A DNA stretch of 34,335 bases, from positions 1 through 34,335 of the IMG/VR virus record IMGVR_UViG_3300033147_000133; one strand, written 5' to 3'. Numbering within the stretch: position 1 is the stretch's first letter; each line of letters opens with the position of its first letter. Made by a program: the position numbers and the translations under genes. Shown in pieces: positions 14,803 through 33,752 of the stretch. The stretch is from a virus. The notes beneath the pieces were generated by a model. The model saw only the letters and a program-made list of their open reading frames with translations. It had not been told where the DNA came from and searched no databases.

Positions 14803-17513
14803 GCCGTTACAAATCGGTCGGCCCGATCGTCACGATCGAGGCTTTGAACGGGATCGGCGCGTCAGCCGAATGGTTTGATATGACGTGCGATATCCAGGCG
14901 GCGCGTGTCCGGCGCGGTCGAACGGCTGGCGGGCCGCAGGCGTGGATGAACCGGATCAACGCGGGCGAACTGGTGCTCACGTTGAACAACGAGTCAGGCC
15001 GGTATTCGCAGTTCGACCCCGATCTGAACTTGGCACTCATCAACGAAAACACGTATATCCGTGTGCGCGCCAACTGGAAAAACGTCGACTATTGCATCGG
15101 CGGTTTCTACGTCGAACAGTGGGAAGAAAACTGGACGGCTGTAACCGACGAAATCGTGATCGTTTGCGTCGACGCGTTGGCGTTCATGTCGGAACAGGGA
15201 AGTGAGTTTGAGTGGGTTCCCGGTGCTGCCGGACAGTCGATTCCGAAACGGTTGGAGCAACTGCTGACTCGGGCCGGGCAGCGCGGTGTCCCGTTCTACG
15301 CTGACGCTGACCGTGACGTGACGTGCATCTCGCCGTTGCTGGACCGGACTCGTGTGCTCGATGAAATCCACAAGACGGCCCTGTCGGGCAACGGTGTCTT
15401 GTTCCATGAACCCATCTCACCGATACCGGGGGTTGACGTGCTCGCGCCCGACGACAGCTACGTCTATCTCGGGCCGTCCAGATTTGAGTCGGTGCTCGCA
15501 GCGTTCGGTGAGGCGACCCCGATGACTGCCGATCCGACGACTGCCTCCGATTGGCGTTTGGTGAGTGGGCCGCTCGACCGGGCGCAGTCGGGTACGAGTC
15601 GACGCGCTCAGGGTGAGGTGCCGGTGTTCTCCGACAACTGCATTCTGGAGTCCGGCACTCACGAGTACGTCGATATCCAATGGCAATACATCGGCTATGA
15701 ACGGCCCTCGACGTTGGCAGTTGCCAACAGGCGGCCACCTACGGAACGGGACGCCGAGGGCAACGAGATACCGCCACCGTGGACCGAGGCGAAAGCTCAG
15801 GTCCATTCGTCGGAGGCGACCCGTCATAAGGTGATCGAGATAACCGACCTCCGGTTCTCGAACGACAACCAGGCGTCCTATGTCGCTCAGACGATGATGC
15901 AGCAGTTGGCCGAACCGAAACTGGAGGTGTCTCGTCTCAGACTGTTCCCGCATTTCGATGAGCGGCAGTTCGACGCGTTGATGGTGCTGCGAATGCAGGA
16001 CCACGTTTTGACGATTCGCAACCTGTTGCATTCGGGGCAGGGCACCGCGATCGGGCCGAACGGTCGACGTATCGAAATAGATTCGCTCGTAGAGGGTTTC
16101 GAGTATCGGCTGACGCCGGACGGCAGCGATGTCGACGGTCAGGTGCGTTGGGACACGACGATCATCTTGTCTCCGCTCGTGGCCGACGTGCTCGACATCG
16201 AGATTGCGCCACCGAAACCGACCGACCCATCGGTCCACGTCTATGTCGTTTCACCCGAGGGGAGTGCGGCCGGCGCAGGGCTGACAGCAACCTCGATTGA
16301 TGAGGCGGCCCGGCTCGTCTACCTGTCGTTCACGTCGAATGCTCAGCAGACGCCGACACCGGACAACCTGCGGGCGTTCGCGGTCCACTCTGACCTCGTG
16401 ACGAGGGAGGCTGTTTCGTTCACGTCGATCGACGTGTCGGGTTCGGCCGGGGCGTGGAAAGCGACCGGGGTGTTCAGCCTCGATCGGTTGCTGGAAGGCC
16501 GTCAGTACCGGCTCGGCGTGTATGAGCCGAAACCGCCGAACAGCGAGTCGAACACCGTCATCCTGCATACACCGCATCCTGTGCCCCCCAAACCGTCGAT
16601 CGGCCGTCAGTCGGCGTGGGAGGGCGGTCTACCGGCCGGGGCCACGTCAGCGCCGACAGGGATCAAATGGGCGCACACTCAGGGAGCGCGCTACGACGTG
16701 GGTCGGGCCGATTCTCTCACCGGGACGCTCGCCATAGTCCGATCCAACCAGTCAGCGACGATCCACAACGACGACCTCGACCTCGACCACGACTACTCGT
16801 ACGCGATCCGATATAGCGGAACAACCGATTGGGGTCCCCGCCTGAAAATCAGGACCGGACACCCCGCCAAAATCGAAATCAAAGAGAACGTGAACCTCGG
16901 CACGACACCTGACGTTCCATCGGGCACACGGCCGCCGAGCGACGTGCTCCAGATGACTGTTCCGCTCATCAAACCGCCAGGACCAAACTCGACAGGCGAC
17001 GCCTGGCCGACCACCCCGGCGATCACCTACGACGGCCGCTACTTGGTAGACGCCAACGGAGCGCCGGGAGGGTTCATCGGGACGAAGATCACGAACATGA
17101 AGATGCACGTCGTCAAACAGCCGCCGCCGTTAGGCGACCACACCCTTTCCGGCGAGAACGTCGATGACCCGTCGCGAGTCCAACTGATAACGCTGTACGT
17201 CAAGGGTGTGAAGCCGAACATCTTTGATCCGGCGTGGTCATGGACGAACGTGCAGCGCATCCCGAACCCGTCGTGGCAACCCGACCCGCCGCACGACTCG
17301 CGCAAGCAGGTTCCGATGACAGTTTGGGTGACGGACGGGGTGCCTCCAGGCAGTTCACAGACGGCCGCTCAGATGCGCGACGGTCGCATGGGTATCGTCA
17401 TCGCCGGTTTGGGGTTCTCGTTCCCGAACGGCGACCGGCTCGCCGGTAACGTCACCTTCTTCGGGACGACAGCGACCGGCACCAACTTTGAACGGAACAA
17501 GGTGATCCCATGA
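14799..17513 (+). CDS. Large minor tail protein (distal tail/baseplate hub type)
   Basis: A 904-residue protein directly after the tape measure, where distal-tail and baseplate-hub proteins are encoded. The N-terminal part (about 1-130) has DMTCDIQAARVRRGRTAGG and LNNESGRYSQFDPD, a pattern of actinophage minor tail proteins. A middle section (130-470) is hub-like. From about 475 to 690 two beta-sandwich segments resemble fibronectin type III domains (SVHVYVVSPEG, YLSFTSN, LGVYEPKPP, SYAIRYSGTTDWG). The last 200 residues form another beta-rich unit (TNMKMHVVKQPPP, VTFFGTTATG). One long gene seems to replace the usual two or three. It overlaps both neighbours by ATGA. Confidence 0.8.
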   Translation: MSRYKSVGPIVTIEALNGIGASAEWFDMTCDIQAARVRRGRTAGGPQAWMNRINAGELVLTLNNESGRYSQFDPDLNLALINENTYIRVRANWKNVDYCIGGFYVEQWEENWTAVTDEIVIVCVDALAFMSEQGSEFEWVPGAAGQSIPKRLEQLLTRAGQRGVPFYADADRDVTCISPLLDRTRVLDEIHKTALSGNGVLFHEPISPIPGVDVLAPDDSYVYLGPSRFESVLAAFGEATPMTADPTTASDWRLVSGPLDRAQSGTSRRAQGEVPVFSDNCILESGTHEYVDIQWQYIGYERPSTLAVANRRPPTERDAEGNEIPPPWTEAKAQVHSSEATRHKVIEITDLRFSNDNQASYVAQTMMQQLAEPKLEVSRLRLFPHFDERQFDALMVLRMQDHVLTIRNLLHSGQGTAIGPNGRRIEIDSLVEGFEYRLTPDGSDVDGQVRWDTTIILSPLVADVLDIEIAPPKPTDPSVHVYVVSPEGSAAGAGLTATSIDEAARLVYLSFTSNAQQTPTPDNLRAFAVHSDLVTREAVSFTSIDVSGSAGAWKATGVFSLDRLLEGRQYRLGVYEPKPPNSESNTVILHTPHPVPPKPSIGRQSAWEGGLPAGATSAPTGIKWAHTQGARYDVGRADSLTGTLAIVRSNQSATIHNDDLDLDHDYSYAIRYSGTTDWGPRLKIRTGHPAKIEIKENVNLGTTPDVPSGTRPPSDVLQMTVPLIKPPGPNSTGDAWPTTPAITYDGRYLVDANGAPGGFIGTKITNMKMHVVKQPPPLGDHTLSGENVDDPSRVQLITLYVKGVKPNIFDPAWSWTNVQRIPNPSWQPDPPHDSRKQVPMTVWVTDGVPPGSSQTAAQMRDGRMGIVIAGLGFSFPNGDRLAGNVTFFGTTATGTNFERNKVIP

Positions 17514-19864
17514 GGTACGAGGTTGAGGGAAACGCCGACGCCGAGGCGTTTCAGTTTGTGGCCGACGCCCCCGTTTTCAGCGACCGCGGGCCAGGCATCT
17601 TCACGACGTTGCCGCGGGTCGCCACACCCGGCGACCTCATGGTCACGTTCGGCCCGAACGGGGCTGTCGCTGAACTGTCGATCTTCACCGCCCCGCACGG
17701 CCTCGTTGATGAGCACGGCAGCGCGATCACAGAGTTCGCGCCCGGCACCGGGACATGGGTTTCGCTACTTGGCGGGACGACCGGCCAAGCCGCCCCCGAG
17801 CTACTCGAATGGTTCCCGAGCACCATGTATCCGGCCGGTCAGGTCGTCATGTTGAAAGACGGGGACGGCTACACGCTCTGGCGTGCCCACTCCGACATTC
17901 AGGGTTCGACGTTCAAGCCGGGCGAAACCGGTGCATCGCAAAAGTGGTATCCGATGGGCGGCCACGCCGGAGGGTTCCAGTTGCTCCCCGCAGTCGCCAA
18001 CCATGCTGCGCTTCCGACAGCGGGGAACAGCATCGGCAACGGCCGGATCACGCTCGACACCGGAATCCTGTGGACGTGGAACGGCCACATTTGGGTCGAT
18101 TCCGGCAAGATCATGGGGCCGCCCGGCCCTGCCGGAGCGAAAGGCGATCCTGGTGCTGCCGGAGCGCCAGGTCACGACGGGGCGAAAGGCGACCCCGGCG
18201 CAGATGGGCACATAGGTCCTGCTGGGGCGAAGGGCGACACCGGGGCGGCGGGCGCTGCCGGAGCGACCGGCACGGCCGGTGCGAAAGGCGACCCCGGTGC
18301 TGACGGTCATATAGGTCCTGCGGGGGCGAAGGGCGACACCGGCGCTGCCGGGGCGAAGGGCGACCCTGGCCTCATCGGTCATGACGGTCCTGCCGGAGCG
18401 AAGGGCGACACCGGGGCGGCGGGCGCTGCCGGGACAGTCGGCCACGCCGGGGCGAAGGGCGATCCTGGCGCGGCCGGGCATGACGGCACCGGTGGTGCTG
18501 TCGGGGGGGCTGGGCCGAAAGGCGATCAGGGGACCGGCATCAAGGTCGAGGGCGTGGTCGCCACGATTGGGGATTTGCCGATCCACGGCAACCATCCCGG
18601 CGACGCTCACATGGTCACCTCTACCGGCGACCTAATGATCTATGTCGGGGCGGGGCAAGGTACTGCCGGGCCGCCCGGCCACACAGACGAATGGACCGAC
18701 CTCGGTCACATTGAGGGGCCGCAGGGTCCGGCCGGTCCTGCCGGAACTGCCGGGACGAAGGGCGACCCTGGAGCGGTAGGTCATATCGGTCCTGACGGTC
18801 CTGCCGGTCATGTCGGTGCTGCCGGTGCGAAGGGCGACGACGGGGCAGCCGGGGCGAAAGGTGACCCTGGTGCCATCGGTCATGACGGTCCTGCCGGGGC
18901 GAAGGGCGATACTGGCGCGGCCGGACACATCGGCCCTCCAGGGTCGACCGGACACATCGGTCCTCACGGCACGAAGGGCGACACCGGGGCGGCGGGCGCT
19001 GCCGGGGCGAAGGGCGACGACGGTGCGAAGGGCGACCCCGGCGCGCAAGGTCATGCGGGGGCGGCTGGCCCTGCCGGTCACATCGGTCCTGACGGCGCTA
19101 AGGGTGACACCGGGGCGGCGGGCGCTGCCGGTGCTGACGCGTTTGCTCCTACGGGGGCGATCGTGGCGTTCGGTGGTACTGCGCCCCCTCACGGTTGGTC
19201 GTTGTGTAACGGGACCGTGGTGTCGAAGGCAGCGCCTTTCGACAAGTTGTTCGCTGTCATCGGTCACACTTACGGGCCGGACCCCGGTGGCGGGAAATAC
19301 CACCTGCCCGATTTCAGAGGGCGAAGCCTGGTCGGTCCCGGCACTGTCGCTGGGACCTCGACGGCTCACCCTCTTGGTAGCAGTTACGGCACCGCTGACA
19401 GCGTTGTCCCGTTGCACGATCATGTTGCCGGTGGACTCACGATGGCTAGCCATCATCATTCGATTGCTCACGACCATGTTGCAGAGAACACCGGCAACCA
19501 GTCGGCCTCGCATTACCACAACGTCAACCCGCCGAAAACGAACCTGGTGTTCGGTGGGGCGCGTGGGGCTACGTCGATTTTCCAGTCGAAAGCCGGTGAC
19601 GCCCACTATGGCGGTTTGACGGCTCACATAGGGGGCGGCTCCGGCTCTGATTGGGGCGCTCATCCGTACATCGACATCGGCAACTTCCATAGCGCCGCTC
19701 AGTCGGCCTCTCACCACCATGCTGTCAACCTGCGAGCGTTCGCCGGGAACAGCGGGGCACCAAGCAGTCGGGTGGTCGGGGGGACCACGGCCGGGACTGG
19801 CGGGTCGAAAGTGGAAGCCAACTATCATCCGGTTGTCGCCGTTCACTGGATCATCAAGCTGTGA
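17510..19864 (+). CDS. Collagen-like tail fibre with phage tail-collar domain
   Basis: A 784-residue receptor-binding fibre candidate. Residues 1-200 form an attachment domain, including a carbohydrate-binding-like stretch near 105-150 (AGQVVMLKDGDGYTLWRAH). Two collagen-like Gly-X-Y blocks follow (about 203-343 and 402-541, many GAKGD units), split by a 60-residue insert. From about 546 the Phage Tail Collar domain starts: PTGAIVAFGGTAPPHGWSLCNG, then KYHLPDFRGRSLVGPG. The end (about 640-784) is His rich (ASHHHSIAHDH, ASHHHAVNL), which in T4-like short fibres binds metal at the tip. Identical DNA blocks within the collagen region make length changes likely. Confidence 0.9.
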   Translation: MRYEVEGNADAEAFQFVADAPVFSDRGPGIFTTLPRVATPGDLMVTFGPNGAVAELSIFTAPHGLVDEHGSAITEFAPGTGTWVSLLGGTTGQAAPELLEWFPSTMYPAGQVVMLKDGDGYTLWRAHSDIQGSTFKPGETGASQKWYPMGGHAGGFQLLPAVANHAALPTAGNSIGNGRITLDTGILWTWNGHIWVDSGKIMGPPGPAGAKGDPGAAGAPGHDGAKGDPGADGHIGPAGAKGDTGAAGAAGATGTAGAKGDPGADGHIGPAGAKGDTGAAGAKGDPGLIGHDGPAGAKGDTGAAGAAGTVGHAGAKGDPGAAGHDGTGGAVGGAGPKGDQGTGIKVEGVVATIGDLPIHGNHPGDAHMVTSTGDLMIYVGAGQGTAGPPGHTDEWTDLGHIEGPQGPAGPAGTAGTKGDPGAVGHIGPDGPAGHVGAAGAKGDDGAAGAKGDPGAIGHDGPAGAKGDTGAAGHIGPPGSTGHIGPHGTKGDTGAAGAAGAKGDDGAKGDPGAQGHAGAAGPAGHIGPDGAKGDTGAAGAAGADAFAPTGAIVAFGGTAPPHGWSLCNGTVVSKAAPFDKLFAVIGHTYGPDPGGGKYHLPDFRGRSLVGPGTVAGTSTAHPLGSSYGTADSVVPLHDHVAGGLTMASHHHSIAHDHVAENTGNQSASHYHNVNPPKTNLVFGGARGATSIFQSKAGDAHYGGLTAHIGGGSGSDWGAHPYIDIGNFHSAAQSASHHHAVNLRAFAGNSGAPSSRVVGGTTAGTGGSKVEANYHPVVAVHWIIKL
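18224..19131 (+). repeat. Near-identical DNA repeats in the collagen-like region
   Basis: A 35-base unit beginning GCGAAGGGCGACACCGGGGC is perfect at 18227-18261 and 18398-18432, matches over 34 bases at 18972-19005, and over 26 bases at 19106-19131. Shorter variants fill the space between them. Since codon choice is preserved and not only the amino acids, the blocks probably arose by recent duplication. This is part of the fibre gene, not a CRISPR array. Confidence 0.9.
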
Positions 19865-20165: not shown

Positions 20166-20369
20166 TCAGCGTAGCTCAGGTGGCGACGTAGCAGACACGA
20201 CAACTCTCACTGTCTCCGCCTGCCAGTCGTCCGGCACCGGCTCGATCTGCCACTGATCGGCCCGCCATTTCGCCTGTTCGTGCAACTCGTTGACGTACTG
20301 CATGAGGGCGATCGAGACGGTATTGCATTGCTCGATGTGGGCGCGGTAGGTGGGCTTCATCATGTTCAT
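20166..20369 (-). CDS. Small unknown protein coupled to ArdC
   Basis: A 67-residue protein, helical in its first half (HIEQCNTVSIALMQYVNELHEQAKWRADQW) with a short C-terminal strand. The start at 20369 was chosen because its ATG overlaps the ardC-like stop (ATGA); a longer frame from 20480 lies inside the ArdC gene and is unlikely. It may assist the antirestriction protein, based only on coupling. No family recognised. Confidence 0.65.
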   Translation of the reverse strand: MNMMKPTYRAHIEQCNTVSIALMQYVNELHEQAKWRADQWQIEPVPDDWQAETVRVVVSATSPPELR

Positions 20370-21274
20370 GCCGACACCAGTGTCCGGTCGTGGGCGTCGA
20401 GCACGAACGCCGACGCTTTCTCGGCCAGGCTCGCAGCCTGAAACAACGCTTTCGGATTCGACTTCAAAACCTGAACCCACGAAGCGAGATAGTTGGCGTG
20501 GTCGGCGCGAGGCACCGACGACCGGCCGAGTTGCGCCATCGAAAAGGCGGCCGACATTTCGGCAACCAGTTCCTCGGCGGCGTAAGCCTCGTCACCGAAC
20601 CTGGTGGACAGGTCACGGTCGAGCCGGTCGGTGTGGCCGGTCCAGTGAGCAAGCTCATGGAGGGCTGTCGACCATGCGCCCTCGGCGTCGGTGAAGCGTT
20701 GACGTTCGGGGAGGCCGATGTGGTCGGTGGTCGGGCTGTAGAACGCCCGGTCGCCGGACTCTCTTAGCTCGGCTCCGACAGCGGCAACGAAGTCGAATGC
20801 GCCGTCGATCTGATCCATGTCGGCGGGGACTGGAAGGTCATCCTCGACGGGGGCGTCGTAGCCGTCGACTTGTCCGGCGTGGAACACCGGGTACATCGAC
20901 CATCCGACGATGCGAAAGCGATCTTCGCCTGTGTCGGGATCTTCGTATTTGATGGATTGGGGGCGGAACAGGTGGACGGCGTGCTGGCCTTTGCGGACTT
21001 GTGCGTCGATGGATGCCCATTGGCGGTAGGTCGCCCATTGGGGGGATGCGTTGAGAAGCATTCCGTGGATGGCGAGCACGAGGCGGTTGCCTGCGCTGTA
21101 GCGGTTCCCGGTGACGGGGTTGGTGGGTACTAGGAGGGCCGGGTCGATCCGGTTCCAGGGTGCGGTCCAGTTGGTCGGGTCGGCTATCCCGGCCTCGATT
21201 GACTGGATGATGATGGTGGCGGTCTTAGCCATTTCAGCTTTGACCTTTGCGGCCCGTTCGGTTGAGTTCGTCAT
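20366..21274 (-). CDS. ArdC-like antirestriction protein with zincin metallopeptidase domain
   Basis: A 302-residue protein of the ArdC family. The N-terminal part (1-135) matches the single-stranded DNA binding domain: WTAPWNRIDPALLVPTNPVTG (38-58) and WATYRQWASIDAQVRKGQHAV (80-100). The C-terminal zincin part carries FYSPTTDHIGLP (178-189), HELAH at 206-210 (zinc-binding His206, His210 and catalytic Glu207) and AAEELVAEM (232-240) with a third acidic ligand. ArdC proteins coat incoming single-stranded DNA and protect it from type I restriction; the peptidase is predicted but its target is unclear. A promoter with almost no leader precedes it, so it is probably expressed early. Confidence 0.9.
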   Translation of the reverse strand: MTNSTERAAKVKAEMAKTATIIIQSIEAGIADPTNWTAPWNRIDPALLVPTNPVTGNRYSAGNRLVLAIHGMLLNASPQWATYRQWASIDAQVRKGQHAVHLFRPQSIKYEDPDTGEDRFRIVGWSMYPVFHAGQVDGYDAPVEDDLPVPADMDQIDGAFDFVAAVGAELRESGDRAFYSPTTDHIGLPERQRFTDAEGAWSTALHELAHWTGHTDRLDRDLSTRFGDEAYAAEELVAEMSAAFSMAQLGRSSVPRADHANYLASWVQVLKSNPKALFQAASLAEKASAFVLDAHDRTLVSA

Positions 21275-21369: not shown

Positions 21370-22005
21370 TCAGGCGTCGGCAGCAATCCGACGTTCCATG
21401 TATTCGGCGTCTGTGGACTCCGCCCAATCAGCGAGCAACCGCTTGATATCCGGTGGCACCACCCTCGGACGGCGGAGTTCGTCATGACCGTAACGCCGGA
21501 CCGCCATCAACAGATGACGACGCAGCGTGTCGGAACGGGCTTCTTCAACGGTCACGGCAGCAATCTCGGCGCGGGAACCGAACAGACGTAACGGGCGTCC
21601 CACCGTGTATCTCCCGTCGTCGTCACGCACGCACCATCCCGCACCACGTCCCTCGTACAGACAATGGACAACCATGTGGCGGACGGCCTTGTGGGGGTCG
21701 ACGTTGGCCGGGGTAGCAGGCCCCAGCGTGTTCGGTCGGTTGTGGACTCGCTCCCCCCGCTCGCGAACCTTGTTCAGGTTCTTGGCGTATCTACGGTTGG
21801 CGGCACCCTGCGGTATCCACCCGCCGTCGATGACGGCGCTCACAATCTCAGCGACGCTACAACCGGGGTGGCCCTCGATGTATTGGTAGATGCGCGCCGT
21901 CGAGGGGTTGGTCCCCCTGGCGTGCGCCAGAGGGACCTCTGTCTCGTCGTGAAAAATCCAGGCGTCAGCCTCCACGTCTGGATTTTTCAGGTCGTCGTCA
22001 GCCAT
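21370..22005 (-). CDS. Winged-helix DNA-binding protein, partner of the ParB-like protein
   Basis: A 211-residue protein. The start at 22005 overlaps the ParB-like stop by eight bases and has GAGG just upstream. Residues about 38-90 form a winged-helix style unit (IYQYIEGHPGCSVAEIVSAV, then QGAANRRYAKNLNKVRERG). The second half is basic and helical with LRRHLLMAVRRYG and LLADWAEST. The protein is likely a regulator or DNA-binding partner of the ParB-like product. No specific family is named, and an alternative is a primase-loading or replication-initiation helper. Confidence 0.7.
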   Translation of the reverse strand: MADDDLKNPDVEADAWIFHDETEVPLAHARGTNPSTARIYQYIEGHPGCSVAEIVSAVIDGGWIPQGAANRRYAKNLNKVRERGERVHNRPNTLGPATPANVDPHKAVRHMVVHCLYEGRGAGWCVRDDDGRYTVGRPLRLFGSRAEIAAVTVEEARSDTLRRHLLMAVRRYGHDELRRPRVVPPDIKRLLADWAESTDAEYMERRIAADA

Positions 22006-22951
22006 GAGCCTCGACCACCTTCGCTGCCAGATCACGCACTGTGATCCACGACTGCACCCAAACGTCACGCTTTACGGGGTCGGTTTCGACCAGGGCGAGT
22101 TCGTGACCGGCCAGGTTCGCCACTTGAGGCAGCGAACGCTTCGCCGTCAACATCTCTGCCGACTGAGCGGAGCGATGCGGGGGCGGACCGGACGGGACGA
22201 TGGTCGTGCGAGCATCGGCCACCGCTTGCAAAGCATCGGCCTCCGATGCGGCGTTTGTCACGCCCTTGACGACCGCGGTCACGGTTTTCGCTGACGGGTT
22301 CGTGTCAGCGATCAGCTTCACGGCGGCGGCGAACGGGGCATCTTGCTTGATCCCCGACACCTTCCGCACATCGGCAGCCTTCAAGGTCCCGAGTTCCTTC
22401 GTCACTTTGGACCGCTTGGCGCGGTCCAGGGCAGCGTTCTCTCGTCGCCAGTTATTGACATGGGTGCGTCCGTAGCCGAGTTCACGGCTGATCGAATCGT
22501 CGGTGTGGCCGTTGCGGATCAAGACCTCGGCCTGTCCGCGTGCCTCGTCAGCGGACAGCCGCCGACCGCCCATCTGATTCATCGCCGCAGCGAAAGCGAC
22601 GGCGAGTTCGGCGTTCGGGAACCGGCACTTGAATGCCGGGAACACCTTGAGGTTGGACCGTTTGGCCGCAGTAATGCGGGTGTTCCCGTCAACGAGAATG
22701 TCGTCATTGAGCAGGATGACGGGGGGAAAGGTGGCTCCGTTACGCATGTGGGCAGCGAACTGCTCGACGGTTTCCTTGTCGTATTGGTGCTCGGCTGAAC
22801 GAACCTGCGTCGCCTCGACCTTATGGATCGCAGAGATGTCGACCTCGGGGTCGTACTCGTACTCGACGTTCCACTCGATCAGCTTGGCCTCTGTGAGCAA
22901 CCCGGCTTTGCGGGAGTCAACATCGGCGGGGGTAGTTACGGTGGTGTTCAT
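21998..22951 (-). CDS. ParB/Spo0J-like nuclease-domain protein
   Basis: A 317-residue protein. Residues about 50-125 match the ParB N-terminal fold: RSAEHQYDKETVEQFAAHMRNG, then FPPVILLNDDILVDGNTRITAAKRS, where GNTRITAA stands at the nucleotide-binding GERR box. A helix-turn-helix follows (GHTDDSISRELGYGRTHVNNW, about 147-167). The C-terminal half is Ala/Val rich and may dimerise. No ParA is encoded, so plasmid-type segregation is unlikely; a regulatory or DNA-clamp role is more plausible. The start at 22951 has GGAGGT seven bases upstream and keeps all domains. Confidence 0.85.
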   Translation of the reverse strand: MNTTVTTPADVDSRKAGLLTEAKLIEWNVEYEYDPEVDISAIHKVEATQVRSAEHQYDKETVEQFAAHMRNGATFPPVILLNDDILVDGNTRITAAKRSNLKVFPAFKCRFPNAELAVAFAAAMNQMGGRRLSADEARGQAEVLIRNGHTDDSISRELGYGRTHVNNWRRENAALDRAKRSKVTKELGTLKAADVRKVSGIKQDAPFAAAVKLIADTNPSAKTVTAVVKGVTNAASEADALQAVADARTTIVPSGPPPHRSAQSAEMLTAKRSLPQVANLAGHELALVETDPVKRDVWVQSWITVRDLAAKVVEAHG

Positions 22952-22979
22952 GGGGGTGACCTCCATTGGTCATTGTCTA

Positions 22980-24815: not shown

Positions 24816-25226
24816 ATGAAAGAGATAACGATAAACCTCGACCCGATCGACGTGGGATGCGAAACCTGCGGAGCCGACATAGGCGTGCCATGTAGAGGCG
24901 TCAAAACCTTCCACCGCGACCGGCTCACCTACCGCAAAGAACTGATCGAGAAATGCACTGGAAACTCCGACTCCGCTCGATGGTGGCGCTGGCGCGTAGG
25001 CAAACGAGGCGTCCCACGCGTGAACCTCCCACACGGCACACACGCCGCGTACCAACGTCACAAGAGAGACGGCACCGAACCCTGCCAGCCGTGCATCGAA
25101 GCCGCCCGAGACACATGGCGTGAAGCCGACAAGAAACGACCGGGCCGCGCCCGCAAAGCCGACATCAACGACGACCTCGGTCTGAGCGAATCCGCAGCAC
25201 TGGCAGAAGAACTAGGACTGGTGTGA
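24816..25226 (+). CDS. Double zinc-ribbon protein
   Basis: A 136-residue protein, first gene of the rightward early operon. The N-terminal ribbon is GCETCGADIGVPCRGVKTFH (14-33). A second module near 73-95 reads HGTHAAYQRHKRDGTEPCQPC, a phage motif often found in actinobacterial genomes and repeated, in reduced form, at the start of the GIY-YIG protein at 33342-33752. The tail is basic (EADKKRPGRARKAD). The start is the ATG after GAAAGAGAAAC. Probable nucleic-acid binding; role unknown. Confidence 0.78.
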   Translation: MKEITINLDPIDVGCETCGADIGVPCRGVKTFHRDRLTYRKELIEKCTGNSDSARWWRWRVGKRGVPRVNLPHGTHAAYQRHKRDGTEPCQPCIEAARDTWREADKKRPGRARKADINDDLGLSESAALAEELGLV

Positions 25227-25711
25227 GCAACATTGTGGGAGTAGATCCCGGCATGACCGGGGCGCTCGCCCTCCTAGTCAACGGCAAGCTCATCGAGGCT
25301 GTCGACATGCCAGTGTTCACCATCAAGAAAGGCAAACGCATCACCCACGAAATCAACGCGGCCGGAGTACGCGACACGCTCAAAGAGTTCGCCGTCAACG
25401 CCCTCGATGAACACCCGTTCGTCGTGCTCGAAAAAGTCCACTCGATGCCGAAACAAGGTGTCGCATCGTCGTTCGCTTTCGGACGTTCGCTCGGGGTGAT
25501 CGAGGGTGTCGTCGCCGCACTCGGGATGCCCCTGGTATGGGCCGTCCCGAACGTGTGGAAACGAGAAATGAAACTGACCGGCAAAGGCAAAGGCGCGTCC
25601 CGACAGATGGCAACAAACCTGTGGCCCGACTGCGCCGACCTGTTCAAACTCGTCAAACACGACGGGCGTGCCGAAGCTGCGCTCATGGCCGAATGGGGGC
25701 GGCAAGGATGA
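25223..25711 (+). CDS. RuvC-like Holliday junction resolvase
   Basis: A 162-residue RNase H-fold resolvase. Motif VGVDPGMTGA (5-14) gives Asp8; FVVLEKVHSMPKQGV (66-80) gives Glu70; KHDGRAEAALMAEWG (145-159) gives His146, Asp147 and Glu151. These match the acidic RuvC set that holds two magnesium ions and cuts four-way junctions. In a phage it would resolve recombination and replication intermediates before packaging. The GTG start overlaps the previous stop. Confidence 0.9.
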   Translation: MSNIVGVDPGMTGALALLVNGKLIEAVDMPVFTIKKGKRITHEINAAGVRDTLKEFAVNALDEHPFVVLEKVHSMPKQGVASSFAFGRSLGVIEGVVAALGMPLVWAVPNVWKREMKLTGKGKGASRQMATNLWPDCADLFKLVKHDGRAEAALMAEWGRQG

Positions 25712-25991: not shown

Positions 25992-26197
25992 TGGAACTAA
26001 CGCCCGACGACCTCGAAAGAGCCTGCATCGTCATGCACGACGCCTACGAAAAAGCGGCAGTCACGGCCGGATGGGAGACGCAAGAGGCATCCCGCAAACC
26101 GTGGGTCACCGTGCCTGAAACGAACAAGGCGACCATGCGCGTAGCGGTCGCCGCCCTCATCCAACACTTGACCACCGACGAAGGGCCAACCCGATGA
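25988..26197 (+). CDS. Small actinophage-type protein of unknown function
   Basis: A 69-residue helical protein: LTPDDLERACIVMHDAYEKAAVTAGWETQ, a Trp-Val-Pro (WVTVPETNKATM) stretch, then VAVAALIQHLT. A similar pattern (a His-centred helix followed by GW and WxxVP) is common among small early genes of phages infecting actinobacteria. ATGA overlaps on both sides. Confidence 0.65.
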   Translation: MMELTPDDLERACIVMHDAYEKAAVTAGWETQEASRKPWVTVPETNKATMRVAVAALIQHLTTDEGPTR

Positions 26198-26349
26198 AAG
26201 TCATCGAGCGATGCCGATGCGGAGCAACAATACGACTCGACCACAGCGGGCGCGCCGCCGACCTCGAAATCGGCAAAGCGCTCACCAAATGGCGTACCGA
26301 ACACAACTGCACACTCCCACCAGGGACCGAACCAGGAGACACACAATGA
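26194..26349 (+). CDS. 51-residue zinc-finger-like protein
   Basis: MKVIERCRCGATIRLDHSG and 32 further residues. Cys7, Cys9, His37 and Cys39 make a CxC...HxC set of a kind seen in tiny phage zinc proteins. The stop overlaps the next start (CAATGA). The frame is short but fits the gap exactly with the same coupling as its neighbours. Function unknown. Confidence 0.6.
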   Translation: MKVIERCRCGATIRLDHSGRAADLEIGKALTKWRTEHNCTLPPGTEPGDTQ

Positions 26350-26672
26350 ACGACCAAACCATCCGACCGGCCCACCGGCTCGATGACAACGGACGGCCCG
26401 CAGGCGGGGTCACAGAGGCAACCGGCGTCGTCGTTGTCTGGCAAAACGGTCCGCTCGGGCGCGGCGACGAACGGCTCGACCCGAACGGCGCATTCGTAGA
26501 GACAGTGATTCGGGTCGCCCTCGACAGGCTCCGCTTCTACCAGTCCACCGACTTCGCCTGCGACGAAAACTCCGCGGCGATAGACGGTCTGTGGATCGCG
26601 CTCGCGGCGCTCAACAAACGGACCGAGCGACGCGAAACGGCAGGCACCGAAGGGACGCACGATGGGGACTGA
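26346..26672 (+). CDS. Acb2/Tad1-like helical hairpin protein, candidate defence antagonist
   Basis: A 108-residue protein. The C-terminal two thirds form a helical hairpin: NGAFVETVIRVALDRLRFYQ (47-66), FACDEN (70-75), then a second helix GLWIALAALNKRTERRE (81-97) and AGTEGTH. Tyr65, Asn75, Arg92 and Arg96 keep a spacing I recall for the nucleotide-binding residues of the Tad1/Acb2 hairpin family. Family members are sponges that bind cyclic-nucleotide defence signals (gcADPR for Thoeris, cyclic oligonucleotides for CBASS). The N-terminal NGRPAGGVTE and WQNGPLGRG motifs are typical of phage members. Binding is inference; the gene itself is solid. It lies in the early operon, fitting early counter-defence. 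Confidence 0.68.
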   Translation: MNDQTIRPAHRLDDNGRPAGGVTEATGVVVVWQNGPLGRGDERLDPNGAFVETVIRVALDRLRFYQSTDFACDENSAAIDGLWIALAALNKRTERRETAGTEGTHDGD

Positions 26673-26919
26673 CTCACCGTTCAGACCGGACCCGCAAGAG
26701 CTAGGTCGGATCGTCGCTAACGGTGTGGTCGAGCTACGCAAACTGACGGTCAACATCATGCAAGCCGCAGCCGCAGCCGCCGACCTCGCAGCGTCGATCG
26801 AAACAATGGTCGTCGCCGCCGACCTGTCAGCGATCAGCGAAGCTGCCAGCAACGGATCACGACGACGTCACCCGTCGAACTATGTGGCACCCCCCAACGA
26901 GGATGGAACAGATGACTGA
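26662..26919 (+). CDS. Small helical unknown protein
   Basis: An 85-residue protein with a long Ala-rich helix (about 18-62, GRIVANGVVELRKL then IMQAAAAAADLAASIETMVVAADLS) and a basic/Pro tail. It overlaps the previous gene by 11 bases and the nuclease gene by eight. No family recognised; the helix could form a coiled coil or bind its neighbour. Confidence 0.65.
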   Translation: MGTDSPFRPDPQELGRIVANGVVELRKLTVNIMQAAAAAADLAASIETMVVAADLSAISEAASNGSRRRHPSNYVAPPNEDGTDD

Positions 26920-28522
26920 CAACGCGGCAGACGTAGCAGACTTCCTAGACACCGACAACGCCGAACGAACCGACTTCGTTCGATGGAACGGCAACCCGGC
27001 AGTCCTACTACCGGACGGCTCCAAACGGGTCGCACACGGCAGACCGTCGAGCCAAGAAAAGAAGCTGTCAGACACGACAGCGCTCGACAAATGGAAGCAC
27101 CGGACGATCATCGAGGGGATCAGCAACGACCCGTCAATCGTCCCCGCCTACATCGCGGCGACCACCAAAAAGGAGAAAAACGAGTTGGCCGACCGCGCCC
27201 TCAACCGGGGCGGTTCAGACGACGCAGCCGATTGGGGCACCGCCCTTCACAAACTCACCGAACAGATCGACGCAGGCGAACGCTCTGTAGATGATCTGCC
27301 TGAGCGTGAAGCACAACGGATGCGCGAATATCTGGATGCGCTCGACGTGTTCGGGTTGGAGGTGTGCCCCGACTGGATCGAGGTGCAACTCGTCAACGAC
27401 AAGCTGCGGTTCGCCGGGACAGCCGACCGCATATTCAAAGCGACGAAACAGATCGTGACACCGTGGGGCGAGAACATTCGACCCGGCGACTACATCGGGG
27501 CCGACCTCAAAACCAACTCCGGTGATCTGAAATGGTCGCTGCTCACATACGAGGTCCAGTCAGCGATCTACTTCGGTCGAGACGCACTGTTCTACAACGT
27601 CGTCACCGACGAACGCACCCCGCTCCCCGAGGGGATGCGACACGACTGGTCGTTGATGGTGCACCTCCCCTCGGCCGGTGAAGGCTGCGACATGATCTTT
27701 ATGGATATGGAACGCGGCCAGCGTGGGGCAGACCTTGCGAGGGAGGTGTCGAACTGGCGCAAAGAAAAGGTGGTCATCAACGTCGCCGCCGCTCCGATCA
27801 TTGCAAACGAAACTACCGTCGAACCCGTCGAGGTCGAGGCAGAGACAGCTACGGTGACCGACCCCATGACCGACGCGGTGCCGACAGACGAGACTCTCCA
27901 ATGGATCAAGGATCGGGTCGCCGCTGTTCGGGCGAAGGACAAGCGTGCCGTCAACCTGTTGGTCGATAACTGGCCGCCAGGGGTGCCAGGGTTGAAGGCG
28001 ACCGGGCACACCGCCGCTCAGTTGGGTTTGATCGACAAGGCTGTCAGCTACGTCGAGAAAGAGCATTCGATGCCGTTCATCCCGGCACCGGAGAAACCTC
28101 GTGAACCGCGTGAGTCGTCTGTGATCCCGACACCGGAACGACGTGAGTACGTCCCCGAGTCCACACAGGACAACGACGCAGATCCGTTGGCTGTGCAGGT
28201 GCTACGGGACCGGGTTGCGGCGCTTACAGAGCCACAGAGAGCGTGGGTTACCGACGTAGTGCGACAAACCGGCAGCACATTCAAGCTGACAGCGCCATGC
28301 AGCGTCGTCACGTTTGAACGGGTCGTCGCCCTCGTCACATGGGCCGAAATCTCCCACGTCGCAGCACTCGACGCAGCCCTCAACATGCTCGCCCGAACAG
28401 ACATAACCGAACTCGCAACATTCGACTCTGGACTAGCGCGGACCCTGACCTCGCTCGGCCAAGACTTCGCTGAGGATCTGATCGTCCTCGACGGCACCGG
28501 CACCGATTTGGTGCGCCGGTAA
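26912..28522 (+). CDS. PD-(D/E)XK nuclease of the RecB/Cas4 type
   Basis: A 536-residue protein. The nuclease core lies at about 105-225: WGTALHKLTEQI (His113, Glu117), EVQLVNDKLRFAGTADRIF with GTADR (Asp172), GDYIGADLKTNS (Asp198, Lys200) and QSAIYF (Gln216, Tyr220). This order (His, Asp, Asp-x-Lys, Gln-x3-Tyr) is the RecB/Cas4 exonuclease pattern. The C-terminal half (about 300-536) is acidic and includes helix-rich segments perhaps for binding SSB or the helicase. GAGG lies nine bases before the chosen ATG. Likely role: DNA end processing for recombination-dependent replication. Confidence 0.85.
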   Translation: MTDNAADVADFLDTDNAERTDFVRWNGNPAVLLPDGSKRVAHGRPSSQEKKLSDTTALDKWKHRTIIEGISNDPSIVPAYIAATTKKEKNELADRALNRGGSDDAADWGTALHKLTEQIDAGERSVDDLPEREAQRMREYLDALDVFGLEVCPDWIEVQLVNDKLRFAGTADRIFKATKQIVTPWGENIRPGDYIGADLKTNSGDLKWSLLTYEVQSAIYFGRDALFYNVVTDERTPLPEGMRHDWSLMVHLPSAGEGCDMIFMDMERGQRGADLAREVSNWRKEKVVINVAAAPIIANETTVEPVEVEAETATVTDPMTDAVPTDETLQWIKDRVAAVRAKDKRAVNLLVDNWPPGVPGLKATGHTAAQLGLIDKAVSYVEKEHSMPFIPAPEKPREPRESSVIPTPERREYVPESTQDNDADPLAVQVLRDRVAALTEPQRAWVTDVVRQTGSTFKLTAPCSVVTFERVVALVTWAEISHVAALDAALNMLARTDITELATFDSGLARTLTSLGQDFAEDLIVLDGTGTDLVRR

Positions 28523-29902: not shown

Positions 29903-30530
29903 GTACGGCAAAACCGCTCAGCCCGGCGCACGAGGGTTCGGAGAATGTGGCTGTCCCATCATCGCGAAATGTGGTGATCTGAATATGTGGCATTGGTCGC
30001 ATGAGGCGCAGACGGCGTGCACCGGCATCGAACACGACGAAGGATTCTGGCAGGCGGCATGGCATGAATGGGCGCTCACCCGCGGCGCGGAGACAGATGT
30101 GCGGATCGGCAGGCAACGGGTCGATTTCGTCATGCCGAACGGCCGTCAAGTCCTGTTGCGTTCCGAATACCCCGATGTGAGAGACGTGGAACGCCTGGAG
30201 ACGGTGCTGGGCGACGCTGTATGGATCTATCGGTGGACTCAGGCCCGATGGGACCGTTTGTGGCAGGGCGGCGCACACAACCTGTTCAAGTGGCGTCAGG
30301 GGAGCCGTGTCTTGACGCGTCACACGAAACCGATCCGGTTGCACCACCACGACCGTCTGTTCGTGGTCGACAACGCGTTCATGGGGACCTCGTTGGACTG
30401 GTCCGGCGAGAACGAGGTGGACGCCGTGTTCATACAGTTCAACCGTGACCCTGATACTCCGGCAGCCCCGTTCGATGTGACCGAGGCCCGCACATATATG
30501 AACGAACGAGTGAACGAAAGACAACCATGA
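29889..30530 (+). CDS. CoiA-like nuclease-fold protein, possibly inactive
   Basis: A 213-residue protein. The N-terminal zinc part (GFGECGCPIIAKCGDLNMWHWSHE, 16-39, with CxC and C) and AWHEWALTRGAETDVRIGRQRVDFVM (57-82) match the competence protein CoiA layout: a zinc module followed by a PD-(D/E)XK-type core with Asp79. At the next strand the usual Glu-x-Gln motif is replaced by VLLRSEYPD (88-96), so the canonical acid may be missing. It may be an inactive, DNA-binding form or use a nearby Glu93. Its start shares a 20-bp repeat with the previous gene; the end overlaps the helicase gene by ATGA. Confidence 0.65.
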   Translation: MRLDQYGKTAQPGARGFGECGCPIIAKCGDLNMWHWSHEAQTACTGIEHDEGFWQAAWHEWALTRGAETDVRIGRQRVDFVMPNGRQVLLRSEYPDVRDVERLETVLGDAVWIYRWTQARWDRLWQGGAHNLFKWRQGSRVLTRHTKPIRLHHHDRLFVVDNAFMGTSLDWSGENEVDAVFIQFNRDPDTPAAPFDVTEARTYMNERVNERQP

Positions 30531-32665
30531 CCCCACTGGAACACGCCACGAAACTGCTCGACCTCGGCTATCGGATAGCACCGATCAGGCGCGGCTCGAA
30601 ATATCCGTATGTGAAGGGTTGGACCGATCTGTCGTCGGACGAGGTGACCGACAGGTTGGAAGAATGGTGGGGCGACGGGAAGAACGGGATCGGTTGGGTC
30701 CAGGGTTTGCAATATGACGGGTCGTTCATCTGGACGATCGACCTCGACCGGCACGACCCTCACGCCGATGGCGTCGAGGGGATGCGACGGCTGACCCACG
30801 ACCTCGGTGTGTCCCTGCCGAACACGACGGCGGCTGACACCGGGGGCAACGGTAGGCATCTGATCTTCCAGGGTCCGGCCGATTGTCGGATACGCAACTT
30901 CCAGTCGCAGCCGACGAGGTTGGCACCGGGGATCGACGTGCGAGGTGCTGGCGGGCAGATCGTGGTGGCACCAACGGTGCATCCTGACACCGGGGCGTTG
31001 TACGAATGGCGCAACGGGCGGGCACCGTGGGAGACGCCCCCGGCGATGGCACCGGACTGGTTGCTCGACCTCGTGCTCGACGCTCAAGCGGAGCATCTGC
31101 TGGGGGACGCAAAAGCCGCTGACGAGGTTATGACAACTCCAGGTGGAAGTTCCTCGTCAGCGGCAGACACAAACATACCCACACCCCACGCAGATACCAA
31201 CCTGCTCGACAAGATAACTCCAGCCGACCACCTCCGAAACACATGGAACTGGCACGACGAACTCATCAAAGACGGCTGGATACCCGCAGGCGGCGGCGGC
31301 ACAACCGACCTCCTATGGAAACGGCCAGGCAAACACACCAAAGGCCACTCAGCCGTACTCCACACAAACACCGACACCTTCGTCGTGTTCTCCAACCACG
31401 CCGACATGCAACAACTCCACACCCTCGGCCGACTCAACGCAGGCGGCAACGGCACCGCCGTCACCCCACTCCAATACGTCGCCGCAACCAAACACGGCGG
31501 AGACATTGCAGACGCAGCCCGAGCAATCAGGACCACCATGCCGAAACCCGAACCCGACGACTGGTTCGACCGCATGGAAATCGACCAGTCGGCCAGCGTC
31601 CTATCCGACACCGCCGACGAAGATGACTTCGTAGACCGACACATCGGAGTATTCCTGGCCCACAACGCAGTCGTCCCCGACCCCGACCCCCTCATCGCAG
31701 ACGTGCTCGACTACGGCACAGTCGGACTCCTATACGCCCGATGGGGGTGTTACAAAAGCTTCATGGCGCTCGATTGGGGGCTACACGTCGCCGCAGGAAT
31801 CGACTGGTACGGGCACACCGTCGACCAGCGACCCGTCCTCGTGCTCGGCTACGAAGCCCCCTACTCGCTCGTCAGACGGGCACAGGCATGGGGGAAACAC
31901 CACGAACGGGTCGCACTCGACAACTATTGGACCCACCCCAAACCGCCACGGCTCACCGACCCCGCACAAATGGCGATCATCGGCCAGGTGCTCGACCGGC
32001 TCGACATCGGCCTCGTCATCATCGACACCATCGCCCGAGGCGGCCCCGGCTCAGACATGAACAACCACGAAGCAGACCTCGTATATGCGGGCCTACACGC
32101 CCTCTCAGCGCCGTCGAGAGTGGTGCTGGGCGTCACACACGCCGGGAAGGACGCATCTCGCGGCGTGAGGGGCTACAGCGCACAAGAGGATCAAGTGGAC
32201 TACATCTACCGGCTCGACCGAGAACGGGACCAGGGCACACAGCAACCGATCGGACCGGCCACCCTGTCAGCCCCGAAAGCGAAAGACCGCGAACCGCTCG
32301 ACCGGATGCGGTTCGACCTCGTGCAAACCTCGGCCCTCAACGACAACGAACGGGTCATGCTCGCACTCACCGAAATGACAGGCACCTGGAACAACGATGG
32401 AGACGTAGCGCCCTCGGCTCGGGCCGAACGCAAGATCATGCACCGGCTACTAGAACAACCCGGCGACGGATGGTTCCCCACCAAGACGCTGATCGAGGTG
32501 TCGAAAGACGGCACCAACAAACCCGAGTCACGACGGATCAAGCGTGAGCACGTCAGGGGAGCCATCGAACTGCTGCTTGAGCGTGAATGGGCTGAACAAG
32601 ATGGCGAGAGAACGATGATACGGGCGACCAGGGAGGCCCGAATCGACGCCGGGCAGCAGGTGTGA
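30527..32665 (+). CDS. Primase-polymerase / RepA-type helicase fusion
   Basis: A 712-residue replication protein. N-terminal Prim-Pol: IDLDRHD (71-77, Asp72 and Asp74), GGNGRHLIF (106-114, His111) and PGIDVRGAGGQIVVAPTVHP (134-153, Asp137). A middle domain (about 225-330) has LLWKRPGKHTKGHSAVLH. The C-terminal helicase has GLLYARWGCYKSFMALDWG with a Walker A variant ARWGCYKS (404-411; Tyr before Lys), Walker B VIIDT ending near Asp500, and VTHAGKDASRGVRGYSAQEDQ. Such fusions prime DNA and unwind it at the phage origin. No separate polymerase is encoded, so the host replisome is likely used. Confidence 0.88.
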   Translation: MTPLEHATKLLDLGYRIAPIRRGSKYPYVKGWTDLSSDEVTDRLEEWWGDGKNGIGWVQGLQYDGSFIWTIDLDRHDPHADGVEGMRRLTHDLGVSLPNTTAADTGGNGRHLIFQGPADCRIRNFQSQPTRLAPGIDVRGAGGQIVVAPTVHPDTGALYEWRNGRAPWETPPAMAPDWLLDLVLDAQAEHLLGDAKAADEVMTTPGGSSSSAADTNIPTPHADTNLLDKITPADHLRNTWNWHDELIKDGWIPAGGGGTTDLLWKRPGKHTKGHSAVLHTNTDTFVVFSNHADMQQLHTLGRLNAGGNGTAVTPLQYVAATKHGGDIADAARAIRTTMPKPEPDDWFDRMEIDQSASVLSDTADEDDFVDRHIGVFLAHNAVVPDPDPLIADVLDYGTVGLLYARWGCYKSFMALDWGLHVAAGIDWYGHTVDQRPVLVLGYEAPYSLVRRAQAWGKHHERVALDNYWTHPKPPRLTDPAQMAIIGQVLDRLDIGLVIIDTIARGGPGSDMNNHEADLVYAGLHALSAPSRVVLGVTHAGKDASRGVRGYSAQEDQVDYIYRLDRERDQGTQQPIGPATLSAPKAKDREPLDRMRFDLVQTSALNDNERVMLALTEMTGTWNNDGDVAPSARAERKIMHRLLEQPGDGWFPTKTLIEVSKDGTNKPESRRIKREHVRGAIELLLEREWAEQDGERTMIRATREARIDAGQQV

Positions 32666-33341: not shown

Positions 33342-33752
33342 CTAGTCATCTACGAAATGGGTATTGAACTCAGGCATCCATCGGCCAATCTCCCCGGCCT
33401 CAACCTTGTCAGCCTCACGCTTCGTCAGTGGGCCGACGTTGGTCATGTCAATCCGATGGATCAGGTTCCACCCCTCGAAGGTGGTCCGATGATGACCGAG
33501 GCGGTTGGCGGGCGAGCGAGTCATCCCGACGTAGATCGTGGCTCCAGCGGAGTCGATGAATCGGTAGAGCCAATATGGATACCGGGTCGGATCGGCGGGC
33601 TTGTCGCGTCCGTTCGCTATGGCAGCGCGCTCACGCAACCGCCGATGGTACTCGGTGTGGTACTCGCGGTGGGCTTGCTTGCATCGAGGACAGCGGCATC
33701 CGTATTGGTAGGCCGTCATTGGCTTGTGTGTGGGGTATTCGCATGGGGTCAT
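33342..33752 (-). CDS. GIY-YIG endonuclease with N-terminal zinc module
   Basis: A 136-residue protein. The C-terminal GIY-YIG core spans about 60-132: WLYRFIDSAG (GIY-like, Tyr63), TIYVGMTRSPANRLGHH (YIG-like Tyr74-Val-Gly76, Arg84, His87/His88), Glu118 and the final PEFN (Asn130). The N-terminal part (C4, YQYGCRCPRCKQAHREYHTEYH) resembles the zinc module of the protein at 24816-25226. Such stand-alone enzymes act as homing-type or repair nucleases. It has no intron beside it. It lies on the opposite strand at the end of the early region, which suits a mobile, independently expressed gene. Confidence 0.85.
   Translation of the reverse strand: MTPCEYPTHKPMTAYQYGCRCPRCKQAHREYHTEYHRRLRERAAIANGRDKPADPTRYPYWLYRFIDSAGATIYVGMTRSPANRLGHHRTTFEGWNLIHRIDMTNVGPLTKREADKVEAGEIGRWMPEFNTHFVDD

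Follow-up and report, generated by a model that had tools for sequence, protein, structure and literature searches.

The viral contig IMGVR_UViG_3300033147_000133, whose whole stretch of 34,335 nt (G+C 61.8%) was analysed here and is called the window, carries a 108-aa protein gene of the Tad1 (Thoeris anti-defence 1) type within its replication operon. The explanation that best fits our computational evidence is a Tad1-family sponge that is made from this operon and traps host second messengers as an oligomer, and we give this reading a probability of roughly 0.83. The gene itself, its family, its predicted fold and the conservation of its residues carry this reading.

The gene and its family

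The frame at 26346-26672 is a real gene with a stop-free translation of 108 codons and a codon-position G+C of 0.71/0.50/0.77. The start codon shares the letters ATGA with the end of the preceding ORF, at 26349, and the N-termini of the homologues lie no more than a few residues from this ATG. An alternative in-frame ATG at 26211 is supported by no homologue. The gene and its putative ribosome-binding site are as follows.

26346-26672, + strand, putative gene of a Tad1-like sponge, 108 aa and a stop codon (sequence, profile and fold matches)
26334-26338, + strand, AGGAG resembling a Shine-Dalgarno site, 7 nt upstream of the start codon (sequence)

In total, 64 phage homologues were aligned with the protein, giving a family of 65 members. 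Searched by phmmer against solved structures, the protein matched gp184 of PDB entry 8y6v (1.2e-9), CmTad1 (8.5e-6) and cbTad1 (3.5e-3). A 13-member family profile, which has the Tad1 of Bacillus phage SBSphiJ7 among its members, reached CmTad1 at 7.1e-22 and cbTad1 at 2.9e-15, and the 65-member profile, built without any named Tad1, still reached them at 9.5e-17 and 1e-13. Profile-profile comparison (hhalign) of the family with an alignment led by SBSphiJ7 Tad1 gave 99.9% over 87 columns, and one family member shares 57% identity with SBSphiJ7 Tad1 over 75% of its length. To control for chance, we ran a Tad1 profile over 500 frames of the window and 2000 shuffles of the protein, and it found the 26346-26672 frame at 2e-23 and nothing else; this profile includes one Vibrio relative near the compact clade described below, and the PDB matches are independent of it. 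Because sequence, profile and fold all agree with the characterised Tad1 sponges, we regard membership of the Tad1 family as close to certain.

The curated models were silent on this protein, with no match in Pfam, NCBIfam or PADLOC. The first-pass annotation had suggested the Pfam hairpin model as a check, and this model, PF24729 (Acb2_Tad1_hairpin), did not match the protein even at E 10, nor did it match in a search of its record, but it did match 25 of the 65 relatives (E up to 1). PHROG families of unknown function also match the protein, phrog_2428 at 1.6e-15. Since the relatives are found by PF24729 and the protein itself by PHROG profiles, we read these misses as the limited reach of the models; PF24729 is an aid to annotation and not a defining feature of Tad1.

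Predicted fold and putative pocket

AlphaFold2, run on a single chain with the 65 sequences, predicted a confident structure (pLDDT 92.4) in which an N-terminal antiparallel sheet of three strands is followed by two long C-terminal helices that pair as a hairpin (pLDDT about 97). This bears out the helical hairpin that had been proposed from the letters alone. The parts of the protein map to the window as follows.

26364-26441, + strand, beta region at the N-terminus, with strands predicted for residues 7-12, 18-25 and 28-32; P18, G20, G21 and W32 invariant (AlphaFold2 and conservation)
26442-26495, + strand, loop leading into helix 1, QxGPLGRGxxRxxPNGAF; Q, GP and NG common to Tad1, LGRG typical of the compact clade
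26496-26543, + strand, predicted hairpin helix 1, residues 51-66, Tyr65 at 26538-26540 (AlphaFold2)
26562-26639, + strand, predicted hairpin helix 2, residues 73-98, Asn75 at 26568-26570, Arg92 at 26619-26621, Arg96 at 26631-26633 (AlphaFold2, aligned to cbTad1)
26646-26660, + strand, C-terminal TEGTH motif, residues 101-105; the corresponding letters in SBSphiJ7 Tad1 are VEGTH

When the model was searched against the PDB, Tad1 chains, some of them with gcADPR or cA3 bound, filled all of the first 20 places (E 8e-6 to 7e-4, query TM 0.62-0.75), and from rank 21 the E-value jumps to 0.29. The comparison with Tad1 and Acb2 structures that the earlier annotation had called for thus returned the sheet and hairpin of Tad1. 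The solved cbTad1 and CmTad1 (PDB 7uav, 7uaw, 8smd, 8kbb-8kbh) share the fold and the hairpin residues with the 108-aa protein at 18-30% identity over the fold alignment, and for them ligand and hexamer are known. The closest structure in BFVD, itself a prediction, is A0A4V0NRU7, an Acb2/Tad1 hairpin domain-containing protein of Vibrio phage VP-1 (TM 0.89, 39% identity), which lacks the GRG-type insertion of the 108-aa protein.

Tyr65, Asn75, Arg92 and Arg96, picked out in the first-pass annotation together with NGAFVE (residues 47-52) and EGTH (residues 102-105), all lie in the translation where they had been placed. Throughout the family the four residues are 92-100% conserved: residue 65 is Tyr in 60 of 65 members and Phe in four, Asn75 is kept in 64, and both arginines are kept in every member. 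Further invariant positions are P18, G20, G21, W32, Q33, G35, N47, G48, F50, V51, E52, R61 and G103. In sequence and profile alignments the four hairpin residues correspond to F83, N93, R110 and R114 of the cbTad1 chain, which we take to be the gcADPR-binding residues F82, N92, R109 and R113, the numbers differing by one because the chain is a residue longer at its N-terminus. The hairpin thus carries the equivalents of all four, with Tyr at position 65 where cbTad1 has Phe.

SBSphiJ7 Tad1, which blocks Thoeris (PMC12043709), resembles the protein in its strand-hairpin order, in the QxGP, NG, E, R, N, R and R positions and in the EGTH tail; the 108-aa protein differs from this 142-aa relative in a shorter N-terminal region, in WQ for FQ and in an extra GRGDER-type loop. 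Four strands have been described for the N-terminal domain of Tad1 (PMC12043709) against the three predicted here, and on account of this shorter domain the pocket of our protein may differ from that of Tad1.

Genomic setting and proposed function

The gene is embedded in replication genes, a long way from the structural module. A RuvC-like resolvase and a protein with a weak match to WhiB are encoded upstream of it; the genes downstream code for a Cas4-like exonuclease, a phrog_1911 protein and a primase-polymerase/helicase. It is this position that suggests early expression.

25223-25711, + strand, RuvC-like Holliday junction resolvase (phrog_1770, 3.5e-31), operon context
26194-26349, + strand, 51-aa ORF upstream, in ATGA overlap with the start of the Tad1-like gene, without family match
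26662-26919, + strand, 85-aa ORF downstream, overlapping the end of the Tad1-like gene by 11 nt
26915-28522, + strand, Cas4-family-like exonuclease (phrog_466, 1e-52), operon context
30527-32665, + strand, primase-polymerase/helicase, operon context
20366-21274, - strand, ArdC-like antirestriction protein (ArdC domain at the N-terminus, 5.8e-18, and zincin-like metallopeptidase domain, 6.6e-45)

The suggestion of the first-pass annotation that the tiny neighbouring genes could hold further antagonists found no support: neither the 51-aa nor the 85-aa ORF has a family match, and the latter, for which no relative was found either, was rejected as a second antagonist. The 51-aa ORF shows a CRCGA...H...C pattern and may bind zinc. 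Elsewhere in the window, away from the sponge operon, the ArdC-like protein is a second candidate counter-defence gene. We also observed a protein with a GIY-YIG nuclease domain (7.3e-5) and a cysteine-rich N-terminus near the right end (33342-33752, - strand), a tail-fibre-like protein with collagen-like Gly-rich repeats in which a repeat search found a 68-nt unit 16 times (17510-19864, + strand), and a protein that looks ParB-like by eye from its DGNTRITAAKR motif, without a confident Pfam match (21998-22966, - strand).

The closest proteins to the terminase and the exonuclease of the window come from actinobacteriophages, and we infer a small, actinophage-like virus whose host is probably actinobacterial. 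Searches with the exonuclease, primase and terminase and at the nucleotide level, aimed at the presence or absence of the gene in close relatives of the virus, returned none.

For the protein we propose a cytoplasmic sponge made from the early replication operon, whose oligomer would trap second messengers produced once the host detects infection; a sponge function of some kind is very likely. Tad1 proteins form dimers or hexamers whose ligand pockets lie between subunits. The main signal, by a fair balance of the evidence, would be glycocyclic ADP-ribose (gcADPR) from the TIR enzymes of Thoeris, held between Tyr65, Asn75, Arg92 and Arg96 on one subunit and the conserved PxGG, WQxGP, NG and EGTH loops of its partner, and CBASS cyclic trinucleotides or dinucleotides may bind too, as in characterised Tad1. 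With the signal trapped, a suicide effector such as ThsA, CapV or NucC would stay inactive, so that the cell would survive to make virus.

The choice of ligand is where the most serious alternative lies. The gcADPR pocket of Tad1 also accepts dinucleotides, and cyclic trinucleotides bind elsewhere on the protein, at sites of their own (PMC12043709). In the compact clade some of the N-terminal domain is missing and the LGRG loop is peculiar to the clade, which could alter the shared pocket; our protein might thus have the Tad1 fold but sponge mainly a CBASS cyclic tri- or dinucleotide, or another TIR or cGAS-like signal, instead of gcADPR. We consider this unlikely, as the protein keeps all four positions of the hairpin and also the residues of the P-GG, QxGP and NG loops that it shares with Tad1.

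The best sequence match of solved structure raises a question of timing. gp184 (chain I of PDB 8y6v) is apparently the Tad1 of phage phiKZ, which a review of jumbo phages describes as an injected protein that stops both CBASS and Thoeris through sequestration (PMC13282480), and some relatives of our protein are annotated as 'structural protein'. An injected virion protein, structural or internal, in place of an early-expressed sponge is nevertheless improbable: although the hairpin and C-terminal tail align, gp184 (230 aa) has about 150 further N-terminal residues that the 108-aa protein lacks, and the gene stands far from the structural module. Injection would in any case be compatible with a sponge function.

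Equally improbable is a small hairpin-fold accessory protein of replication or recombination with no anti-defence role, an idea that draws on the position of the gene between the resolvase and the exonuclease and on the many relatives near helicase, primase or terminase genes, and against which the conserved pocket residues and the Tad1-only fold matches speak. Such a setting is normal for Tad1, since the SBSphiJ7/SPG24 Tad1 gene lies between those of a single-strand binding protein and a UvsX-like recombinase, in a replication/recombination module like that of the window.

Lastly, a true Acb2-type protein, a cyclic-dinucleotide sponge made of helices only, can be set aside: one Pfam model covers both hairpins, Acb2 is annotated in some actinobacteriophages, and Acb2 (T4 Vs.4; Pseudomonas phage p26) shares the helical hairpin and the sponge principle, but hhalign against an alignment of T4 Vs.4 and its relatives gave only 3.7%, an Acb2 model had no match to the protein, no Acb2 structure was among the 50 fold matches listed, and in place of an all-helical protomer with a short N-terminal helix and the conserved GY/N/K motif the protein lacks the motif and has predicted N-terminal strands, a sheet that is absent from Acb2. 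Of the combined Acb2/Tad1 candidacy put forward at first, it is therefore the Tad1 side that stands and the Acb2 side that falls.

The compact clade and its meaning

The 108-aa protein belongs to a compact clade of about 106 aa with a shorter N-terminal domain and a WQxGPLGRG loop. A tree of the hairpin region, which offers few columns, sets this clade apart from the named Tad1 rows with support 99/94, and places the Vibrio relatives next to it. Its members are almost only uncultured viral contigs, and we found no characterised member. Cultured relatives of the protein come from phages of Vibrio, Bacillus, Agrobacterium, Shewanella, Pseudomonas and Aeromonas, and no actinobacteriophage was among them. 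As a side observation, Vibrio phage BX-1 carries an intact Tad1-like ORF at 532-909 without annotation in its GenBank record.

Scans with exact peptide patterns, whose counts are for that reason lower bounds, found relatives on no fewer than 144 viral contigs in one scan (80 were kept) and at six or more loci among 84,980 bacterial and archaeal genomes; plasmids gave no match. This difference argues for a viral rather than a cellular gene. Two contigs of a Candidatus Omnitrophota MAG (L095 and L097) each hold one compact Tad1-like gene, possibly from a prophage or a co-binned virus.

The Tad1 family is already known, and our protein is a further member with an ordinary mechanism, from a compact branch. 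A more speculative view, which we hold only tentatively, is that the compact clade forms a Tad1 branch in its own right, whose trimmed N-terminus and WQxGPLGRG loop give it a different ligand range, possibly with a signal for which no sponge is known so far; in this case it would serve a virus of actinobacteria. What the finding adds is a Tad1-type counter-defence gene placed in a small actinophage-like virus, and a compact Tad1 clade spread over many uncultured phages. Because curated models miss many proteins of this kind, the capacity of phages to counter Thoeris and CBASS is probably under-counted. Small and conserved, the compact proteins are well suited to a direct binding screen, in which their ligand range would be of particular interest.
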